From contig JAPPMR010000923.1 in assembly GCA_028818995.1 (NCBI GenBank), positions 1 to 9,326 on the forward strand: a stretch of DNA of 9,326 nt, in the 5' to 3' direction. The notes below the pieces were generated by a model. The model worked only from the letters and a program-made list of their open reading frames with translations, was not told where the DNA came from and ran no database searches. This DNA comes from Candidatus Poribacteria bacterium (GTDB lineage: Bacteria > Poribacteria > WGA-4E > WGA-3G). Positions 280-8,196 of this stretch are shown piece after piece (position 1 is the stretch's first letter; the number at the start of each line of letters is the position of its first letter). Both the position numbers and the translations under genes were made by a program.

Positions 280-1398
280 CTATACGCTTGCTTCAAGCAT
301 ACGCTCAATTGGCAAGCGAGCTTTGTCAATCACTTCGGGGTCCAACGTAACTTCATATTCGTTGAGGTCTTCACCACTATCAATCGCTTCTAAAATATTC
401 GCAATCTTATCCAAACGGACTTTTGCCATGTGTGAACATCGCACCGAACACGCTGTCCAAAATTCTACTTTTGGAAATTCTTGTGCTAAATTGGAGGTTA
501 ATTCACACTCCGAGGCAACAAACGCCCGTTCTAATTGATTATTTTCTACACGTGCCGCTATATCCTTCATTATTTGGCTGGTGCTACCGTAAAAATCGGC
601 TTCTTTCAAGACATTTGGACGGCATTCCCAATGTGCATATAATTTTCGTTTTGAATGTCCTTTTGGAATCTCAAAAGATTCGCGTATCGCAAGTAGGTCT
701 GAGAGTGTAAATCTTTCGTGAACTTCACAAACTGCACCGCGTGCTGTGTTATCTTTACCGGGATAAACTACATTTTTTTCACCCTTCAACTCTTCTTCTA
801 AATTTTGTGCGAAGAAGATATCAGGAACGAAAATTATTGTATCTCCGGGCATAGTTTTGGCAATGTGTGCAGCATTGGCAGACGTACAACAGATATCGGA
901 TTCCGCTTTAGCGTCTGCATAACTATTCACATAAATCATGACGGGGGCACCTGGGTAAAGTTCTTTTAACTTTCGGACATCTTCAGCACCGAAGTTATCA
1001 GCAAGTGAACACCCCGCTGTTTTATCTGCTACTAATACAGTTTTGTCTGGACTCAGGATTTTTGCCGTTTCTGCCATGAACGGCACACCGTTAAAGATGA
1101 GATACGGTGCTTCTGTCTTTGCAGCAAACATGCTCAGTCCCAACGAGTCACCTTGTTCCTCTTTTTCGGATAATCCGAAAACTAACGGCTCCATGTAGTT
1201 GTGACCTAACATCACAACATCATGTTTTTTCTTCAACGTTCTTATCTTGTGTATGGTTTTGGCATGTACCTCTATATCAAGAGATGTTAAACTCGGGTGA
1301 TGTCGATTATACAACTCGTTTTTAACGTCTTCAAACGTTAGTTCCTTACTACCATTCAGCGCATTTTCTACTGGAGGACTTTTTCCTGTAGGATGCAT
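280..1398 (-). CDS. nadA: Quinolinate synthase NadA
   Basis: NadA condenses iminoaspartate with dihydroxyacetone phosphate to give quinolinate in de novo NAD synthesis. It is a cytoplasmic [4Fe-4S] enzyme. The protein has the usual NadA landmarks: GHNYMEP, AGCSLAD, SDICCTSANA, HWECRP and CSVRCSHM. The expected three cluster ligands are Cys130, Cys259 and Cys321, counted from the chosen ATG. Length is 372 residues, normal for the longer NadA subtype. I chose ATG at 1396-1398 because GGAG (1409-1412) is 10 nt upstream. A GTG three codons earlier (1405-1407) would sit only one base from that GGAG. No nadB or nadC is adjacent in this window. A strong promoter lies at 1480-1508, and the leader carries a long hairpin (1421-1460). 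Confidence 0.96.
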   Translation of the reverse strand: MHPTGKSPPVENALNGSKELTFEDVKNELYNRHHPSLTSLDIEVHAKTIHKIRTLKKKHDVVMLGHNYMEPLVFGLSEKEEQGDSLGLSMFAAKTEAPYLIFNGVPFMAETAKILSPDKTVLVADKTAGCSLADNFGAEDVRKLKELYPGAPVMIYVNSYADAKAESDICCTSANAAHIAKTMPGDTIIFVPDIFFAQNLEEELKGEKNVVYPGKDNTARGAVCEVHERFTLSDLLAIRESFEIPKGHSKRKLYAHWECRPNVLKEADFYGSTSQIMKDIAARVENNQLERAFVASECELTSNLAQEFPKVEFWTACSVRCSHMAKVRLDKIANILEAIDSGEDLNEYEVTLDPEVIDKARLPIERMLEASV

Positions 1399-1420
1399 GC
1401 TAATCACGCTCCAAACTATT

Positions 1421-1549: not shown

Positions 1550-2110
1550 ATGAACATAAAAAAAATGCTTTGTCTTATTCTTATTACGTGTTTAATTTTG
1601 AATTTGAGTTTAGCTGCGGAGGGTTTTTCGGTTAAACTTAGGGGAAAACTTGCTCTTGCCGGAATTCTCTCAGGAGTAGCATATCTTACATACACGTTTG
1701 TTAAACGCGATATGCATGCTGCGGAAGATTTACAGATACAACTCGGTCCTCCCGAACGTATCATCCAATTTGAACGTGGATTTGACCAGTGGGATGTCCA
1801 TTACTACCGTGAACATTCGTATTTTTTTCTAAACAACCGCTTTATAAGGAAAAAGACTCAGAAAGCCTTTTTCCTCAATCAAGCATCTCCAGACTTAGCG
1901 TTGATGGGACAAGGTTTTTTCCTTCATAGAACAGGACGATCAGATAATCCATTTTCTCTTACTTATAAGCCTTTTTCAATGAACCCCAGGTGGTTGTCAC
2001 TTTACCCTTTGCATCAACGGCGAGCCCCTCAACCTGTCTCTTTCTATCCTCGTCTGTTGGAAGACGGACGTTTGCCTGTCCTGCTGCAGCGGCACCCGTT
2101 TTTGAAGTAA
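1550..2110 (+). CDS. Exported or membrane protein of unknown function, 3' end antisense to neighbour
   Basis: I do not recognise the family. The chosen ATG gives 186 residues. A basic start (MNIKK) is followed by a hydrophobic segment (about 6-22) ending near LAAEG, a plausible signal peptide, and by a second hydrophobic segment (about 34-51). A soluble part rich in aromatic and charged residues follows (LGPPERIIQFERGF, WDVHYYREH, FFLNNRFIRK). The frame stays open upstream to 1430, but that part is antisense to the nadA leader hairpin and lacks a signal-peptide start. From 1959 (residue 137 on) it runs antisense inside the convergent CBM-like gene, so the last 50 residues are probably not ancestral sequence. 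No clear ribosome binding site precedes the ATG. It may be a gene that lost its original stop, or a partly decayed one. Confidence 0.5.
   Translation: MNIKKMLCLILITCLILNLSLAAEGFSVKLRGKLALAGILSGVAYLTYTFVKRDMHAAEDLQIQLGPPERIIQFERGFDQWDVHYYREHSYFFLNNRFIRKKTQKAFFLNQASPDLALMGQGFFLHRTGRSDNPFSLTYKPFSMNPRWLSLYPLHQRRAPQPVSFYPRLLEDGRLPVLLQRHPFLK
1848..1874 (-). terminator. Likely rho-independent terminator after the CBM-like gene
   Basis: On the minus strand GGAAAAAGGCT and AGTCTTTTTCC pair over 11 positions, including one G-U, around a TTCTG loop. An A tract leads in and a T tract leads out, as in an intrinsic terminator. It is about 85 nt beyond the stop codon at 1959. On the plus strand the same fold has an A-C mismatch. 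It lies inside the convergent plus-strand open frame, which weakens the case that the distal part of that frame is a real gene. Confidence 0.45.
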
Positions 2111-2633
2111 CAAAAATTGCATCTAACTTTGTAGCATCTTCACGGACTGCTATGCGCAGAATTGTCTCGCCAGCTTTATCAAACTTCCATTCCCTGTCAA
2201 AAGTTCCGGCATCTAACCAGTGATTGATACGGTCCCAGTGCCATATATTTTTTGTGCCGATACTCCATCGGTACTCAGTATTTTTTGTTACCTGAGCATT
2301 TTCGTTTGGGTCAGCAGGTTGCCATGTCACCCAGAAAGAATCACTGTTACCATCCCACGCGAAAACATGACCCCATAGTGCATACTTCCCGCTTTCAGGA
2401 ATGTTGATAATGAATTCTACCCAACCTTTGTCGCCACCACCAGTCAACGGTGCACCTTCCATCCAGACATATTTTCCATCGGATGCCAGTTCATCATCTG
2501 CAATAACCATTGGCTCTTGGAGGACATTTGCTAATTCTGCTTCAAGTGCAATTTCAAAATCAGCACCATGTCCCACAGATGTTAACAAAAATACTGGAAC
2601 TATAAGCATTGAAAAAAGAATACCGTATTTCAT
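1959..2633 (-). CDS. Secreted CBM-like protein (tandem paralogue 1)
   Basis: 224 residues. A signal peptide (about 1-24, cleavage after GHGA) is followed by one beta-sandwich-like domain (about 27-176), then a linker and a conserved C-terminal tail. The domain opens with EAELANV and ends LRIAVREDATKLDAIFV, the layout of carbohydrate-binding modules of the CBM6/35 type. The fold call is by pattern only, and the ligand is unknown. The centre is very rich in tryptophan (for example WHWDRINHWL). Residues 90-149 are identical to the next gene upstream at 55 of 60 positions. The tail TTTWGSLKK ends the protein. The start is set by AAAGGAG at 2640-2646, six bases before the ATG. A TTG seven codons upstream (2652-2654) would put that site inside the gene. 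Confidence 0.85.
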   Translation of the reverse strand: MKYGILFSMLIVPVFLLTSVGHGADFEIALEAELANVLQEPMVIADDELASDGKYVWMEGAPLTGGGDKGWVEFIINIPESGKYALWGHVFAWDGNSDSFWVTWQPADPNENAQVTKNTEYRWSIGTKNIWHWDRINHWLDAGTFDREWKFDKAGETILRIAVREDATKLDAIFVTSKTGAAAAGQANVRLPTDEDRKRQVEGLAVDAKGKVTTTWGSLKKAYK

Positions 2634-2639
2634 TAAAAA

Positions 2640-2646
2640 CTCCTTT
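2640..2646 (-). promoter_or_regulatory. Ribosome binding site that fixes the start at 2633
   Basis: AAAGGAG on the minus strand, with six bases to the ATG at 2631-2633. The neighbouring paralogue has the same AAAGGAG and the same 6-nt spacing. Confidence 0.8.
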
Positions 2647-2662
2647 CTGTTCAAGATATGTT

Positions 2663-2703
2663 AGAAAAAGAGGTTGAGATAACCTAAAAGATTGTCTCAA
2701 CCT
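2663..2703 (-). terminator. Intrinsic terminator between the two CBM-like genes
   Basis: AGGTTGAGA (2671-2679) pairs perfectly with TCTCAACCT (2695-2703), a 9-bp stem with a 15-nt loop. On the minus strand it is followed at once by CTTTTTCT. It starts about 8 nt past the stop codon at 2711. It would end most transcripts after the upstream CBM-like gene, so the downstream paralogue is either read through at lower level or has its own weak promoter. Confidence 0.65.
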
Positions 2704-2710
2704 ATGGCTG

Positions 2711-3361
2711 CTATCTTTGCGCTTTAATTTTTCCCCACGTTGTTGTGAGTTTATCTTGCGGTTCAACGGGGGTAATTTTATCTTCCGGACCAGGAAAACG
2801 CGGGTTGACATCTGCCGCATCTGCAGAGAGGTTGTCGGTGACAAAGACGACATCTAATTTCGCTCCGTCTTCTCGAACAGCAATACGTAGGGTTGTTTCT
2901 CCAGCGGGGAGTTCCCATTCTCTGTCAAAGGTTCCACCATCCAACCAGTGATTGATACGGTCCCAGTGCCATGCGTTTTTTGTGCCAATACTCCATCGGT
3001 ATTCGGTATTTTTCGTTACTTGCGCGTCTTCATCTGGATCGGCAGGTTGCCACGTCACCCAGAACGAGTCGCTGTTGCCATCCCACACAAAGACATGAGC
3101 CCACAATGCATAGGTGCCTGCTTTTGGGATATTGATTACGTATTCTGCCCAACCTTTGTCGCCACCACCCGTTAAAGGTTCACCTTCCATCCAGATATAT
3201 CTTTCGCCAGACGCTTCACCATCTTCGGCAACTACCATCGGTGCTTCAAGTGTGTTTGCCATTTCAGCCTCAATTGCCCGATCATAACTGTAACTGATAC
3301 CATTTGCCAGTAGTAAACCGACTATAAAAAGCATAGAAAAAAACAACATATTGTAACGCAT
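2711..3361 (-). CDS. Secreted CBM-like protein (tandem paralogue 2)
   Basis: 216 residues. A signal peptide (about 1-25, hydrophobic FFSMLFIVGLLLANG) is followed by the same CBM6/35-like domain (about 28-175, from IEAEMAN to LDVVFVTD), a Pro- and acid-rich linker, and the tail EPQDKLTTTWGKIKAQR. It aligns without gaps to paralogue 1 from the EAE motif through residue 149, while signal peptides and linkers differ. That fits an older tandem duplication with the domain held by selection. AAAGGAG (3368-3374) is six bases before the ATG. It lies 77 nt downstream of the propeller gene and 77 nt upstream of paralogue 1. No catalytic motif is seen. A binding role for sugar or another ligand is inferred only from the fold resemblance. 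Confidence 0.85.
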   Translation of the reverse strand: MRYNMLFFSMLFIVGLLLANGISYSYDRAIEAEMANTLEAPMVVAEDGEASGERYIWMEGEPLTGGGDKGWAEYVINIPKAGTYALWAHVFVWDGNSDSFWVTWQPADPDEDAQVTKNTEYRWSIGTKNAWHWDRINHWLDGGTFDREWELPAGETTLRIAVREDGAKLDVVFVTDNLSADAADVNPRFPGPEDKITPVEPQDKLTTTWGKIKAQR

Positions 3362-3387
3362 AAATATCTCCTTTATATTTTAAATTC

Positions 3388-3434
3388 GGCACAAAATATG
3401 TGCCACTTGTTTGCCGTCATTTCATATAGACGGC
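3388..3434 (-). other. Two small hairpins between the propeller and CBM-like genes
   Basis: GGCACA (3388-3393) pairs with TGTGCC (3399-3404), and GCCGTC (3413-3418) pairs with GACGGC (3429-3434). Neither is followed by a clear T run, so a full terminator is doubtful. They could reduce read-through or mark an RNA processing site between co-transcribed genes. Confidence 0.35.
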
Positions 3435-3438
3435 GATC

Positions 3439-4425
3439 CTATTGGGCTTTAAGTTTGCCCCATTGTTGATATTGCAAAGGCGACGGTTCTATTGATAACA
3501 TGGTAGAACTACGCTGCCATTTTGGTTGTGCTGCCCAAGCACCGTTGTCAATTAGCTCACGGCGTTCGCTTCCGTCAGCATTCATCAGATGGATAACCCA
3601 TCTCCCATCCTGTTCAGATTGAAAAGCGATCATGCTGCCATCCTGCGACCACGCTGCGACCGCTTCGTCTATTGGCGTATCAGTGAGTGGTTTTTTGTTA
3701 CCACCATCCGCAGCATCCATTAGGTAAAGGTCAAAGTCTGCTTGATCAACGCCCTGTCGCATTGAGGAATACACAATATGTTTCCCATCAGGCGACCACG
3801 TAGGATATGTATCCATCAAAGGTTGATGTGTTAATCGTTGTTCCTTACGGGTCGTTATGTTAATGGTGTAGATGTCCCAATTCAACTGACGTTTTGAGTG
3901 GAAAACCAAACTGTTTCCATCAGGTGACCAAGACGGAATCTCATCTTCAAACGAGTTTGCAGTAAGGTTTTTCACAATGCCACCTTCCAATACTAAAATA
4001 TAAATATCAAAATGACCTTTGCGATTTGAGATAAAAGCAAGGTGTTTACCATCTGGTGACCAAGAAGGTGCTTTATCTGTTGCCGGGTGGTATGTCAACC
4101 TTCTCTGATGCGTGCCATCAGAGTGCATCACATAAATTTCGTGATTGTCATCGCGCTGTGAGAAAAAAGCAATCTCTGTTCCGTCTGGCGACCACATTGG
4201 ATAGTAATCCGCTGCAGGGTTAAGCGTCAGATTCACAGGTAACTTTCCGAGAGAATCTGTCAAATAAATCTCCCAATTTCCACTGATATCCGAAGCAAAC
4301 GCAATTGGCACAGCATGTGGTTGGCTGCATGCACTCTCTGTCCTAAATAAGAGTGCCAACATCAGAAAAAATACAATCAATATGCTAATAGGATTCGCAT
4401 TTTTTGTCAATATTTTATTTTGCAT
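3439..4425 (-). CDS. Exported TolB-like six-bladed beta-propeller protein
   Basis: 328 residues. A basic start and a hydrophobic segment (about 13-27) indicate export. Cys33 follows it (ESACSQ), but the lipobox is poor, with Glu at -3. The rest is a WD40-like/PD40 propeller. Six IY- or IH-type strands (NWEIY, NHEIY, HFDIY, NWDIY, DFDLY, RWVIH) alternate with WSPDG turns at about 78, 122, 166, 210 and 259 (WSQDG), plus a degenerate sixth at W303. This is the repeat of TolB, but the N-terminal TolB domain and a tol/pal neighbourhood are absent, so it is not called tolB. The protein ends SIEPSPLQYQQWGKLKAQ, a tail shared with the two genes downstream. No ribosome binding site is visible before the ATG at 4423-4425. 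A role in periplasmic or surface binding is inferred. Confidence 0.88.
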   Translation of the reverse strand: MQNKILTKNANPISILIVFFLMLALLFRTESACSQPHAVPIAFASDISGNWEIYLTDSLGKLPVNLTLNPAADYYPMWSPDGTEIAFFSQRDDNHEIYVMHSDGTHQRRLTYHPATDKAPSWSPDGKHLAFISNRKGHFDIYILVLEGGIVKNLTANSFEDEIPSWSPDGNSLVFHSKRQLNWDIYTINITTRKEQRLTHQPLMDTYPTWSPDGKHIVYSSMRQGVDQADFDLYLMDAADGGNKKPLTDTPIDEAVAAWSQDGSMIAFQSEQDGRWVIHLMNADGSERRELIDNGAWAAQPKWQRSSTMLSIEPSPLQYQQWGKLKAQ

Positions 4426-4563: not shown

Positions 4564-5583
4564 TCAGAATTTACCATCGCGCACCTCAAAATGGGTCGGT
4601 TTTTGCAGTGTCCTCCCACCTATCCGAACCCATTCTGCCACCCACTCAATCATCTGACCTAAAGGCACGCACGGATACCCAAACAATTGGTGACATAGCG
4701 AAGCATTGCTCAGCAGTGCTGTTTCTGCCTCTTCTCCCTCAAAACGGACAGGTTTCTTAAGAATTTCACCGAAACGTATCGCTGTGTATCTTATAGAAAC
4801 AGTCTCCGGTCCCGTCACGTTTAGTGTTAAAGGTGGACTTTGGCAGTGTGTGAAAGAACGTAATGCTATAGCGTTTGCATCTCTTTGCCATATTACATTT
4901 ACATTTCCCATCTCAAGAGATATAGGTTCTCCAGTGTAAACTTTTTGTGCTATATCAAGTAGTATTCCATATCGGAGTTCAATTGCGTAATTCAATCGGA
5001 GAATCGCCATCGGTGTTCCGAATTGTTCCGAGAAATAGCAACATATCCGCTCCCTACCGAGACACGATTGGGCATATTCACCTATTGGCGCAACGGTGGA
5101 ACTTTCTGTCGCACCGCCCTGTGAAATAGGTGTCAACGGATTGACATTGCCTGTTGAAAAGATAACCAATCGGGAGTCCCGAAACTTTTCTGCAACACGT
5201 CCCGGCATGTAAGTGTTTAACGCCCATGTCAAATCCTCGTTCCCGGTTGCACCGAATTTCCTACCTGCCATAAAAACCACATTTTGAACATTGGGTAGGT
5301 TTTGTAGGTTGTTTTCCGAAAGTAGGTCCGCGACAATTGTTTCAACCCCGACTTCATGCAGGAATTCCTGTATACCGGGATTTGAAAAACGGGATACACC
5401 GATAACCTTTTTAGCGACACCCGCACAATCAATAGCACGTTTTGCCAGTTTTGAAAGCGACGGTCCCATCTTCCCACCAACACCAAGAATAAGGATATCA
5501 CCCTCTAAAGAATCGATTGCCGATATTACCTCGGTTGTTGGTTCTGATAGATATGATTCTAACTGAGATTCCGTTTTTATCAA
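4564..5583 (-). CDS. NAD(P)-dependent epimerase/dehydratase-like (extended SDR) protein
   Basis: 339 residues. After a 27-residue lead comes a Rossmann start, DILILGVGGKMG, with the G-x-G-G-x-x-G nucleotide-binding pattern at 34-40. An acidic VADLL (84-88), VVFMAGRKFG (102-111) and LVIFSTGNV (139-147) follow, as in extended SDR proteins acting on nucleotide sugars or similar substrates. At the catalytic Tyr position it reads EYAQSCLGRER, so the usual YxxxK is Y170xxxC174. Either the lysine has been replaced, or the protein binds cofactor without classical SDR catalysis. The substrate is unknown. The start is TTG (5581-5583) with no Shine-Dalgarno, chosen because the Rossmann motif leaves little room for a later start. 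A promoter lies at 5646-5674. The gene is 138 nt upstream of the propeller gene, with a REP-like repeat between. Confidence 0.85.
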   Translation of the reverse strand: MIKTESQLESYLSEPTTEVISAIDSLEGDILILGVGGKMGPSLSKLAKRAIDCAGVAKKVIGVSRFSNPGIQEFLHEVGVETIVADLLSENNLQNLPNVQNVVFMAGRKFGATGNEDLTWALNTYMPGRVAEKFRDSRLVIFSTGNVNPLTPISQGGATESSTVAPIGEYAQSCLGRERICCYFSEQFGTPMAILRLNYAIELRYGILLDIAQKVYTGEPISLEMGNVNVIWQRDANAIALRSFTHCQSPPLTLNVTGPETVSIRYTAIRFGEILKKPVRFEGEEAETALLSNASLCHQLFGYPCVPLGQMIEWVAEWVRIGGRTLQKPTHFEVRDGKF

Positions 5584-5796: not shown

Positions 5797-5894
5797 TTAG
5801 GACGTTTGCACGTCACATTTAGGACGTTTGCACGTCACTTTTAGGACGTTACACGTCACATTTAGGACGTTTTGCACGTCACAGTGACGTGCAA
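5797..5894. repeat. Tandem array of four ~22-bp palindromic units with an inverted cap
   Basis: Four units begin TTAGGACGT at 5797, 5819, 5841 and 5862, spaced 22, 22 and 21 bp. Each has invariant arms GACGT and ACGTC around a loop of 4, 4, 3 or 5 nt (TTGC, TTGC, TAC, TTTGC), followed by ACNT or ACAG. The last unit joins an inverted half: TTGCACGTCAC (5872-5882), A, GTGACGTGCAA (5884-5894), a perfect 11-bp inverted repeat. One further GTGACGTGA is at 5917-5925. There are no unique spacers, so it is not CRISPR. A spacing of about two helical turns suits a protein-binding array. It lies upstream of the SDR promoter and past the 3' end of the gene at 5975. Confidence 0.85.
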
Positions 5895-6989: not shown

Positions 6990-7009
6990 CGATTGGCAAT
7001 CGCTCCTAC
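6990..7009. repeat. REP-like repeat, copy 3, carrying the rpn stop codon
   Basis: CGATT (6990-6994), GGC, AATCG (6998-7002), then CTCCTACC, as in copies 1 and 2. Stem and loop sequence differ but the hairpin is kept. The CTA of CTCCTACC (7006-7008) is the TAG stop of the minus-strand Rpn gene. Confidence 0.6.
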
Positions 7010-8136
7010 CGCTGCGTTTCTAAGTCAACATCGTCAAGGGTTGCAGCATTGTACACCTGTTCAAAGAGTGTGTCAAGGCGTGAAAGGTCATTGATCTCAG
7101 TAATCTGCTTGATGACAACAGCGTCTGAAACATCGGGGAACTGTAAACGCAGTAATGTGAGGATAGAATCCTGTTTTGCCCGGATCTCACCTTCAACTTT
7201 TCCTTCAACTTTTCCCTGTTCAATGCCTTCAACTTTTCCCTGTTCAATGCCTTCAACTTTTCCCTGTTCAATAAGCACTTCTGCACTTGTCAAGACCATG
7301 TTTCTAACCTCCTCGTTGTGTGTGTATGTGTTCACCAATTCTAATAAATCGTGGCGTTCATTTTCGGGTCGTCTAAAAAATATAAGATGACACAAATAGA
7401 GTATCGCATTGCGATATTGTGCTGCATCTATCGGTTCTAACTGCTGAATATGTGATAGTGCTCTCTGTAGTGCGTCGAGCATCACATTTTTATCAGCGTG
7501 TTCCTGTTGTAGCACGGTAAGCAACCATCCGAGCGGATGATCTGTTTTTGTCAAATCTGCTGTATCGGTATCCTTGACACCGAGAAAAAGCGTCTCAAAT
7601 GATGGGACAAACCTTTCCAATATAGTTGGCATTTCCATAGATGTCGTCAGCGATAGTGGTGTGTGCCACTTTTGCGATCCCGTGTAATACACGATGGGCA
7701 GGATAGGACGCAACCACCATTCGCTTCTCGGCACTTTTGCGGATTCTAAATCGCGCCGCTGTTCGTCCCATATCTGACACATATAGAACAGCAACCGAAA
7801 TGCCATCAACGGGTCAACTGTGGATTGATGTTCAAGCAGGATATAGATCAGCAACTCCTCTGTGTCTTCTCCCGTTTTGAACGGCACACTGAACACTATG
7901 TCGGATTCCAACTCTCGCAGTGTCCCAGTAATAAAACTCCTATTCAACTCTACAAGTTTCTCAAAATCAAGGTAGTCAACAAGTTCGCTTGCGACGATCT
8001 CCACTAAACCGCGCACATTCTCTTTCTCTTTGAATAACCACCGAGCATTCCTGTCGGCAAAGTGCGAAATAGGATGCTTGAAAAGATCCCGTATCTCTTG
8101 CGTCAATGTATCCTGTGTGTCTGCTTCTCTCGGCAT
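7006..8136 (-). CDS. Rpn-family recombination-promoting nuclease/putative transposase
   Basis: 376 residues from the chosen start. It opens with HPISHFADRNARWLF, the usual Rpn N-terminus. The PD-(D/E)XK core follows: Asp79 in LRELESDIVFSV and E102-x-Q104 in YILLEHQSTVDP, then PILPIVYYTG (144-153). Family members are DNA endonucleases linked to RecA-independent recombination and were formerly filed as transposases. Near the C-terminus the IEQGKVEG octapeptide repeats three times, with a further GKVEG (about 289-316), encoded by a 24-bp DNA repeat. Two ATGs lie in tandem (8134-8139). GGAGGG at 8140-8145 touches the first and is four bases from the second, so I use the second. The frame stays open to 8196 but overlaps the promoter. 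The gene ends inside a REP-like repeat and is bracketed by repeats L and R. Confidence 0.9.
   Translation of the reverse strand: MPREADTQDTLTQEIRDLFKHPISHFADRNARWLFKEKENVRGLVEIVASELVDYLDFEKLVELNRSFITGTLRELESDIVFSVPFKTGEDTEELLIYILLEHQSTVDPLMAFRLLFYMCQIWDEQRRDLESAKVPRSEWWLRPILPIVYYTGSQKWHTPLSLTTSMEMPTILERFVPSFETLFLGVKDTDTADLTKTDHPLGWLLTVLQQEHADKNVMLDALQRALSHIQQLEPIDAAQYRNAILYLCHLIFFRRPENERHDLLELVNTYTHNEEVRNMVLTSAEVLIEQGKVEGIEQGKVEGIEQGKVEGKVEGEIRAKQDSILTLLRLQFPDVSDAVVIKQITEINDLSRLDTLFEQVYNAATLDDVDLETQR
7190..7273. repeat. 24-bp tandem repeat inside the Rpn gene
   Basis: Three near-perfect 24-bp units (7202-7225, 7226-7249, 7250-7273), each starting CCTTCAACTTTTCCCTG on the plus strand, and a 12-bp partial at 7190-7201. 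It encodes IEQGKVEG. Being a multiple of three, copy number can change without a frameshift. Confidence 0.9.
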
Positions 8137-8139
8137 CAT

Positions 8140-8145
8140 CCCTCC
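8140..8145 (-). promoter_or_regulatory. Ribosome binding site of the Rpn gene
   Basis: GGAGGG on the minus strand directly before ATGATG. Its spacing favours the second ATG (8134-8136). Confidence 0.6.
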
Positions 8146-8155
8146 GAACACGTGA

Positions 8156-8196
8156 ACTATAGCGTATAGTGTAACATAATTGAAGCACCATGTCAA
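8156..8196 (-). promoter_or_regulatory. Rpn gene promoter with overlapping palindrome (candidate operator)
   Basis: Minus strand TTGACA (8191-8196, 6/6), 17-nt spacer ending TGT, TACACT (8168-8173, 4/6 with extended TGn). The start is predicted near 8161. The perfect palindrome ACTATA-CGC-TATAGT (8156-8170) overlaps the -10 box and start site, where a repressor would block transcription. Confidence 0.55.

Follow-up and report, generated by a model that had tools for sequence, protein, structure and literature searches.

In cellulosomes, one docking module, the dockerin, is found on many carbohydrate-binding proteins and consists of about 60-70 residues with calcium-binding repeats. Tags of the PEP-CTERM type occur from several to dozens of times per genome, and protein families with swapped tails are known among them, as described in parts of two papers (PMC3237569, PMC11980579). 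For Poribacteria, parts of Kamke et al. (2014) record TIGR04183 (type IX sorting) domains and no type IX structural genes (PMC3909097). The subject of the present analysis is a short C-terminal tail encoded in a 9,326-nucleotide stretch of DNA from a Candidatus Poribacteria bacterium (assembly GCA_028818995.1, contig JAPPMR010000923.1; the whole stretch is called the window below), in which three adjacent genes for exported proteins end alike. We propose that the tail, of roughly 15-20 residues, is a C-terminal address tag by which Poribacteria would bring Sec-exported binding proteins to the outer cell surface or hold them there. We infer the location from sequence and give this reading a probability of roughly 60%.

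Three tailed proteins of the window

An earlier note on this DNA had read three related tails from the translations, and all three were recovered letter for letter on the minus strand, each with a 15-residue core:

1959..2654, minus strand: CBM-like exported protein, paralogue 1; 231 amino acids from a TTG start, with an in-frame ATG 7 codons downstream; ends VDAKGKVTTTWGSLK-KAYK
1974..2018, minus strand: tail core of paralogue 1, VDAKGKVTTTWGSLK; 4 residues before the stop; profile score 40.5
2711..3361, minus strand: CBM6/CBM35-like jelly-roll exported protein, paralogue 2; 216 amino acids; ends VEPQDKLTTTWGKIK-AQR
2723..2767, minus strand: tail core of paralogue 2, VEPQDKLTTTWGKIK; 3 residues before the stop; profile score 44.0
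3439..4425, minus strand: PD40/TolB-like beta-propeller, exported; 328 amino acids; PF07676 at E 2.2e-56; ends IEPSPLQYQQWGKLK-AQ
3448..3492, minus strand: diverged tail core of the propeller, IEPSPLQYQQWGKLK; 2 residues before the stop; profile score 6.3

The scores come from a 15-column profile built from another Poribacteria genome (G002). For comparison, the best of 1602 untailed G002 protein ends scores 2.6, and the ends of five other open reading frames (ORFs) of the window lie at -12.5 to -20.7 on the same profile. Judged by this profile, the propeller copy is real but diverged, and it is the weakest of the three. All 12 propeller orthologues keep the W, G, and K of WGxxK, although the remaining tail positions vary; across 52 CBM-like homologues, with both window paralogues counted in, K204, W209, and K213 are invariant. 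The spacing to the stop needed correction, the last conserved K standing 2-4 residues from it and not 4-7 as first described.

Paralogue 2 was modeled with AlphaFold2 at a mean predicted local distance difference test score (pLDDT) of 81.6, and its best Foldseek match is CBM6 (E 8.5e-7; TM-score 0.40 by query and 0.66 by target), which makes the predicted fold closest to the CBM6/CBM35 jelly rolls. The protein has 482 homologues at E 0.001. Paralogue 1 matched nothing in Pfam at E 0.1 or in NCBIfam at E 1. At 63% identity the two CBM-like proteins are paralogues, so they count once and only the comparison of propeller (mean pLDDT of its model 82.6) with CBM-like protein is independent. For that comparison, the claim of a tail shared between unrelated folds stands.

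Census, carriers, and distribution

Counts were made in related Poribacteria genomes (G002, G003, G004, and others), the window's own genome lying outside the census. The principal sample is 2.0 Mb of a 5.01-Mb poribacterial contig of G002, in which a naive home-made caller gave 1651 ORFs of at least 80 amino acids. The pattern W-G-x-[LIVM]-[KR] lies within the last 18 residues of 30 of these ORFs, 28 of them signal-like, and the other 570,005 residues contain just 2 further sites, so that about 0.1 ORFs would be expected to end in it by chance. The 15-column profile was iterated from these 30 ends and finds 49 of the 1651 ORFs to be tailed, with the consensus V-[EDS]-[PA]-x-[GD]-K-L-[AT]-T-T-W-G-x-[LI]-K followed by 1-11 residues. 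The gap in scores is clean: 48 of the 49 reach at least 16, and among 1651 shuffled ends a single one reaches 10 and none reaches 12. An internal stretch scores 12 or more in just 2 ORFs. The tails are real and far beyond chance.

The earlier note had called for a comparison with signal-peptide proteins, and the outcome favors its proposal. A crude hydrophobic-stretch predictor marks 45 of the 49 tailed ORFs as signal-like, compared with 470 of all 1651 (Fisher p 4e-21). Three of the four unsignalled carriers have, by eye, a hydrophobic stretch further in, behind a start that was probably mis-called, and the fourth, an ORF of the LamG cluster described below, has none. A 400-kb sample of G004, the genome closest to the window, contains 15 tailed ORFs among 293, all 15 of them signal-like against 107 overall (p 1e-7). 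An earlier sample, biased to the neighborhood of nadA and including the window, had 86 tailed ORFs in 851, of which 82 were signal-like. The tail was also considered as a lipoprotein mark and rejected as such, a lipobox-like sequence being present in 3 of 49 tailed and 36 of 307 untailed signal proteins.

The carriers are diverse, and most are predicted to bind sugars. Clustered by BLAST with their last 30 residues removed, the 49 proteins of the G002 sample fall into 16 clusters: one of 25, one of 6 large LTD proteins, one of 3 propellers, two clusters of two, and 11 singletons. The name LamG for the cluster of 25 derives from a database protein that carries PF13385 and is identical to one member over the 40 residues compared. 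Pfam scans covered 18 tailed proteins outside the LamG cluster together with two untailed relatives. Six of the tailed proteins gave no match at E 0.01, and a seventh matched only below the curated cut-off. The Pfam families found on carriers are LamG, 3-keto-disaccharide-hydrolase-like, CBM_4_9, CBM9, PD40, and LTD, with the CBM6/35 fold besides, for seven Pfam or fold classes and at least three clearly different folds. The tail itself is recognizable from one family to the next. A profile made only from LamG tails detects 17 of 18 other tails and 4 of 6 LTD tails, in which W is replaced by F in G002, and a profile made without LamG and LTD tails detects all 25 LamG tails. A search of a large protein set with the tail only returned 11 proteins, all LamG and no new kind of carrier, the two with named sources being from Poribacteria.

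Conservation of the tail appears to operate on the protein. Sites with the same residue share a codon at a rate of 0.440, against 0.410 expected from codon usage (8998 site pairs). Because synonymous codons are near random while the residues are kept, the comparison points to a tail held at the amino-acid level while its DNA drifted, that is, to selection on the protein and not to recent copying.

For distribution, an alignment of 34 tails was searched at a threshold of E <= 0.1. All 84 Poribacteria genomes examined match, with 31 to at least 103 matches each. The whole G002 genome, with 150 of 194 candidates scored, has at least 116 matches at this threshold and at least 112 at E <= 1e-3, with C-terminal position checked for those within the 2.0-Mb sample, and the whole G003 genome has 49. 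Searches outside the phylum covered up to 355 genomes, of which G402 alone has real copies of the tail. Weak matches in one of 6 genomes (E 0.84, with an earlier alignment) and, in frames of 24-51 residues, in 2 of 149 and 2 of 97 were taken as chance. Among 109 further relatives, which may overlap the earlier genome sets, two matched: G402 and G352, the latter in an internal stretch likewise put down to chance. G402 has three C-terminal tails, two on LTD-like ORFs and one on a propeller-like ORF. In three stretches of this genome, 26 of 36 ORFs have no match in the 2.0 Mb of G002, and one domain-bearing G402 protein is 67% identical over 120 residues to G002, so both a separate lineage and poribacterial contamination are possible sources of its tails.

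Competing readings and neighboring genes

Should the tail be an address tag, it would work as follows. After Sec export, the tail would lie outside the fold as a helix and be bound by one common envelope receptor. This receptor would display or anchor a set of lectin, CBM, propeller, and lamin-tail proteins, and the displayed proteins may coat the cell and bind glycans. The two models are consistent with the first step. In both, the tail is outside the folded domain and is modeled as a helix. The helix of paralogue 2 spans residues 204-215, and pLDDT falls below 50 over residues 197-216; that of the propeller spans 316-326, with pLDDT under 50 from 320 to 328. The tail has the spacing Lxxx[WF]xx[LI] between two nearly invariant lysines, and in a helix this spacing would bring three residues onto the same face.

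Several observations weigh against this proposal. The core does not exceed shuffled sequences in helical hydrophobic moment (0.327 versus 0.302, standard deviation 0.15), so the helix rests on low-confidence models and on spacing. Both the ORF caller and the signal predictor are home-made and crude, and 25 of the 49 carriers come from the one LamG cluster. The 400-kb sample of G003 gave a single match among 304 ORFs, weak (15.2) and unsignalled. No partner, scaffold, or receptor was identified. A listing of neighbor-gene families, made with no statistic, showed no convincing partner; the neighbors met most often are members of large families found throughout the sample (in one family of 98, for example, 23 members lie near a tail, and in one of 25, 13 do). 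Gene order revealed no link from the tail to PorV (15 loci, median distance p 0.11), C25, or SprA. The earlier note's suggestion of a sorting, anchoring, or docking signal is borne out to the extent that export enrichment, several exported families, and presence in 84 of 84 genomes agree with it; no processing or anchoring enzyme was found, with no search aimed at the sortase or exosortase families. As all 84 genomes carry the tail, presence and absence within the phylum offer no contrast by which a co-distributed protease could be traced.

The rival that survives best is a narrower form of our own proposal, and the confidences of the two overlap. Here the tail would be a docking peptide, like a miniature dockerin, that plugs binding modules into a common scaffold or surface-layer protein and does not drive secretion. 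The carriers are mostly small (41 of 49 below 350 amino acids in the G002 sample), and the Lxxx[WF]xx[LI] spacing would suit a helix lying in a groove. One propeller relative with a PD40 match, G002 g177085_179181- (698 amino acids), ends by eye in a dockerin-like sequence instead (DLNGDGIVNILDL), a third kind of C-terminal module in these genomes. In G002 g1934201 and G003_375411, which look like an orthologous pair, a tail-like stretch with W changed to L directly precedes a type IX-like domain, so tail and domain can coexist. The listing of neighbors suggested no partner for such docking, and we consider docking in this strict sense somewhat unlikely.

A second specific version, again with overlapping confidence, is that the tail serves type IX secretion. 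The case for it begins with homologous proteins of the G002 sample. The LTD model has 7 hits there, 6 tailed and 1 with a FlgD_ig/type IX-like domain, and the PD40 model has 12, of which 3 are tailed, 6 have the FlgD_ig/type IX-like domain, 1 has the dockerin-like end, and 2 are others. By these matches, the tail alternates with a type IX-like C-terminal domain on homologous proteins, and none of the 18 ORFs with a domain-like end pattern also ends in the tail. Components of the machinery may be present as well. All of 8 Poribacteria genomes have an ORF of 1946-2312 amino acids with collinear SprA matches, which lie below the curated cut-off. In G002 this ORF is G002:C2:26198-32998 (L067:6198-12998), its Pfam SprA_N match (E 1.5e-5) is also below cut-off, and a comparison by sequence with solved structures returned no match. 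C25 (PorU/gingipain-like) proteins occur in 7 of 8 genomes, the one scanned from G002 ending in FlgD_ig, and the PorV family in 6 of 6, with 16-19 matched stretches each, several below cut-off. A divergent SprA-like ORF with C25 and PorV-family genes in Poribacteria contrasts with the 2014 report of no structural genes. Furthermore, a type IX-like domain ends a protein (L216:9915-11645) of G402, the only tailed genome found outside the phylum; one gene separates its gene from the tailed propeller-like gene.

Against this version, the tail has no Ig-like fold in either model, and the three window proteins gave no FlgD_ig or TIGR04183 match in Pfam and NCBIfam. The 1.7-Mb G402 genome has no SprA and no PorV match, although it may be incomplete, since one of its proteins has the type IX-like end. 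Type IX secretion stays a rival because G402 has tails but no SprA or PorV match, because five SprA-bearing genomes outside the phylum have no tail match, and because distances in gene order are unremarkable; it seems to us unlikely, a shade more so than docking.

We find it quite improbable that the tail instead retains proteins in the periplasm as an amphipathic helix on a membrane surface. The two flanking lysines, the conserved L, W, and L/I, and the low-confidence helix of both models would fit such a role, but the hydrophobic moment is no higher than in shuffled cores and the hydrophobic face suggested by the sequence is only three residues wide. The tail could also be passive, a functionless relic of common descent in a paralogue set dominated by LamG proteins, which supply about half of the carriers in the G002 sample, where the LamG model has 27 hits, every one tailed. 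That account is very improbable given the number of classes and distinct folds with the tail, its conservation across families, the K, W, and K kept without exception in the CBM-like homologues, and residues maintained over near-random codons. Least credible is that the tail is a 3′ DNA module which recombination, as the earlier note suggested, or gene conversion carried from gene to gene in recent times: tailed genes do cluster (32 gaps below 3 kb versus 7.75 expected) and, when paralogue 2 and the propeller are aligned over their last 60 coding bases, the score is reached by 0 of 500 shuffles, but codon agreement is close to expectation, the likeness upstream of the three stops falls within coding DNA, and the 60 bases after the stops, where likeness had also been claimed, are dissimilar except marginally between paralogues 1 and 2 (5 of 500 shuffles).

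The tailed genes of the window have the following neighbor, by which the window was assigned to Candidatus Poribacteria:

280..1407, minus strand: nadA (quinolinate synthase); PF02445 at E 1.3e-82; 99% identical to L001 (JAPPIG010000115.1, Candidatus Poribacteria); untailed, end score -20.5

Around nadA of L001, on the side away from the tailed genes, are a PorV-family gene (L001:11252-12244; PorV-family match C9:131024-131917) and an ORF of about 2800 amino acids (L001:12284-20764); ORFs like these two occupy the same place at nadA in all 5 loci compared. A plus-strand ORF with a signal-like start (window 1550-2110) overlaps the 3′ end of paralogue 1 in antisense. It may be a real gene, because a similar ORF adjoins nadA in L009 (9253-9822, by eye). 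On the other side of the propeller gene, an epimerase-like gene is intact at window 4564-5583 and is represented by two ORFs in the closest relative (L001:5955-6973). The intergenic positions 5800-5885 show, by eye, a short AGGACGTTTGCACGTCAC-like repeat in several almost identical copies, and a Transposase_31/YhgA-like gene (PF04754) at 7006-8196, minus strand, has an in-frame EQGKVEGI repeat close to its C-terminus.

Comparison with known C-terminal modules

Neither the Pfam scans nor an NCBIfam scan of 8 proteins yielded a family for such a tail, and none of the best-matching stretches shown reaches it. A description of the tail was likewise not found among the papers listed by the literature searches or in parts of PMC3909097, with subscription journals, preprints, and supplements outside the search. 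We put forward, at somewhat less than even odds, a larger proposal: that Poribacteria, and perhaps one relative outside the phylum, have an undescribed class of tag, a soluble, helix-prone peptide of 15 residues with no transmembrane anchor and no folded domain, which a dedicated envelope receptor would read to assemble a coat of glycan-binding proteins on the surface of each cell (up to a hundred or more of them), parallel to and interchangeable with a divergent type IX system. If this is true, each genome contains up to a hundred or more surface candidates marked by the tag, the poribacterial surface proteome becomes predictable from sequence, and peptides or antibodies could be used to test the candidates. 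As a C-terminal signal for sorting or docking, the tag would also lack the transmembrane anchor or folded domain of the known signals compared here, and it bears on how Poribacteria display eukaryote-like binding proteins.

Among known systems, the type IX C-terminal domain (TIGR04183 Por_Secre_tail, FlgD_ig-like) is similar in being C-terminal, in being carried by exported proteins, and in having many carriers per genome, and in the same genome it sits on homologues of the tailed proteins. Like type IX cargo, most tail carriers have a predicted Sec signal (45 of 49 by the crude predictor and 3 more by eye). The domain is far larger, however, at about 80 residues according to part of PMC7468200 and about 90 here (from NYPNPF to the end), whereas the tail spans about 15-20 residues and has no confident fold. 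Dockerins differ in their duplicated calcium-binding loop-helix repeats, which the tail sequences do not have, and no dockerin Pfam match occurred among the tailed proteins scanned. The tail resembles PEP-CTERM, GlyGly-CTERM, MYXO-CTERM, and LPXTG in being a short C-terminal homology on otherwise unrelated exported proteins. Those tags, however, combine a motif with a transmembrane helix and a basic cluster, whereas the tail has no transmembrane segment: in the 49 listed tails just 1-11 residues separate the core from the stop, and they include no hydrophobic stretch. C-terminal tags are thus known as a kind, and by comparison with those described in parts of PMC3237569 and PMC11980579, the tail of Poribacteria is distinct in dispensing with the transmembrane part.

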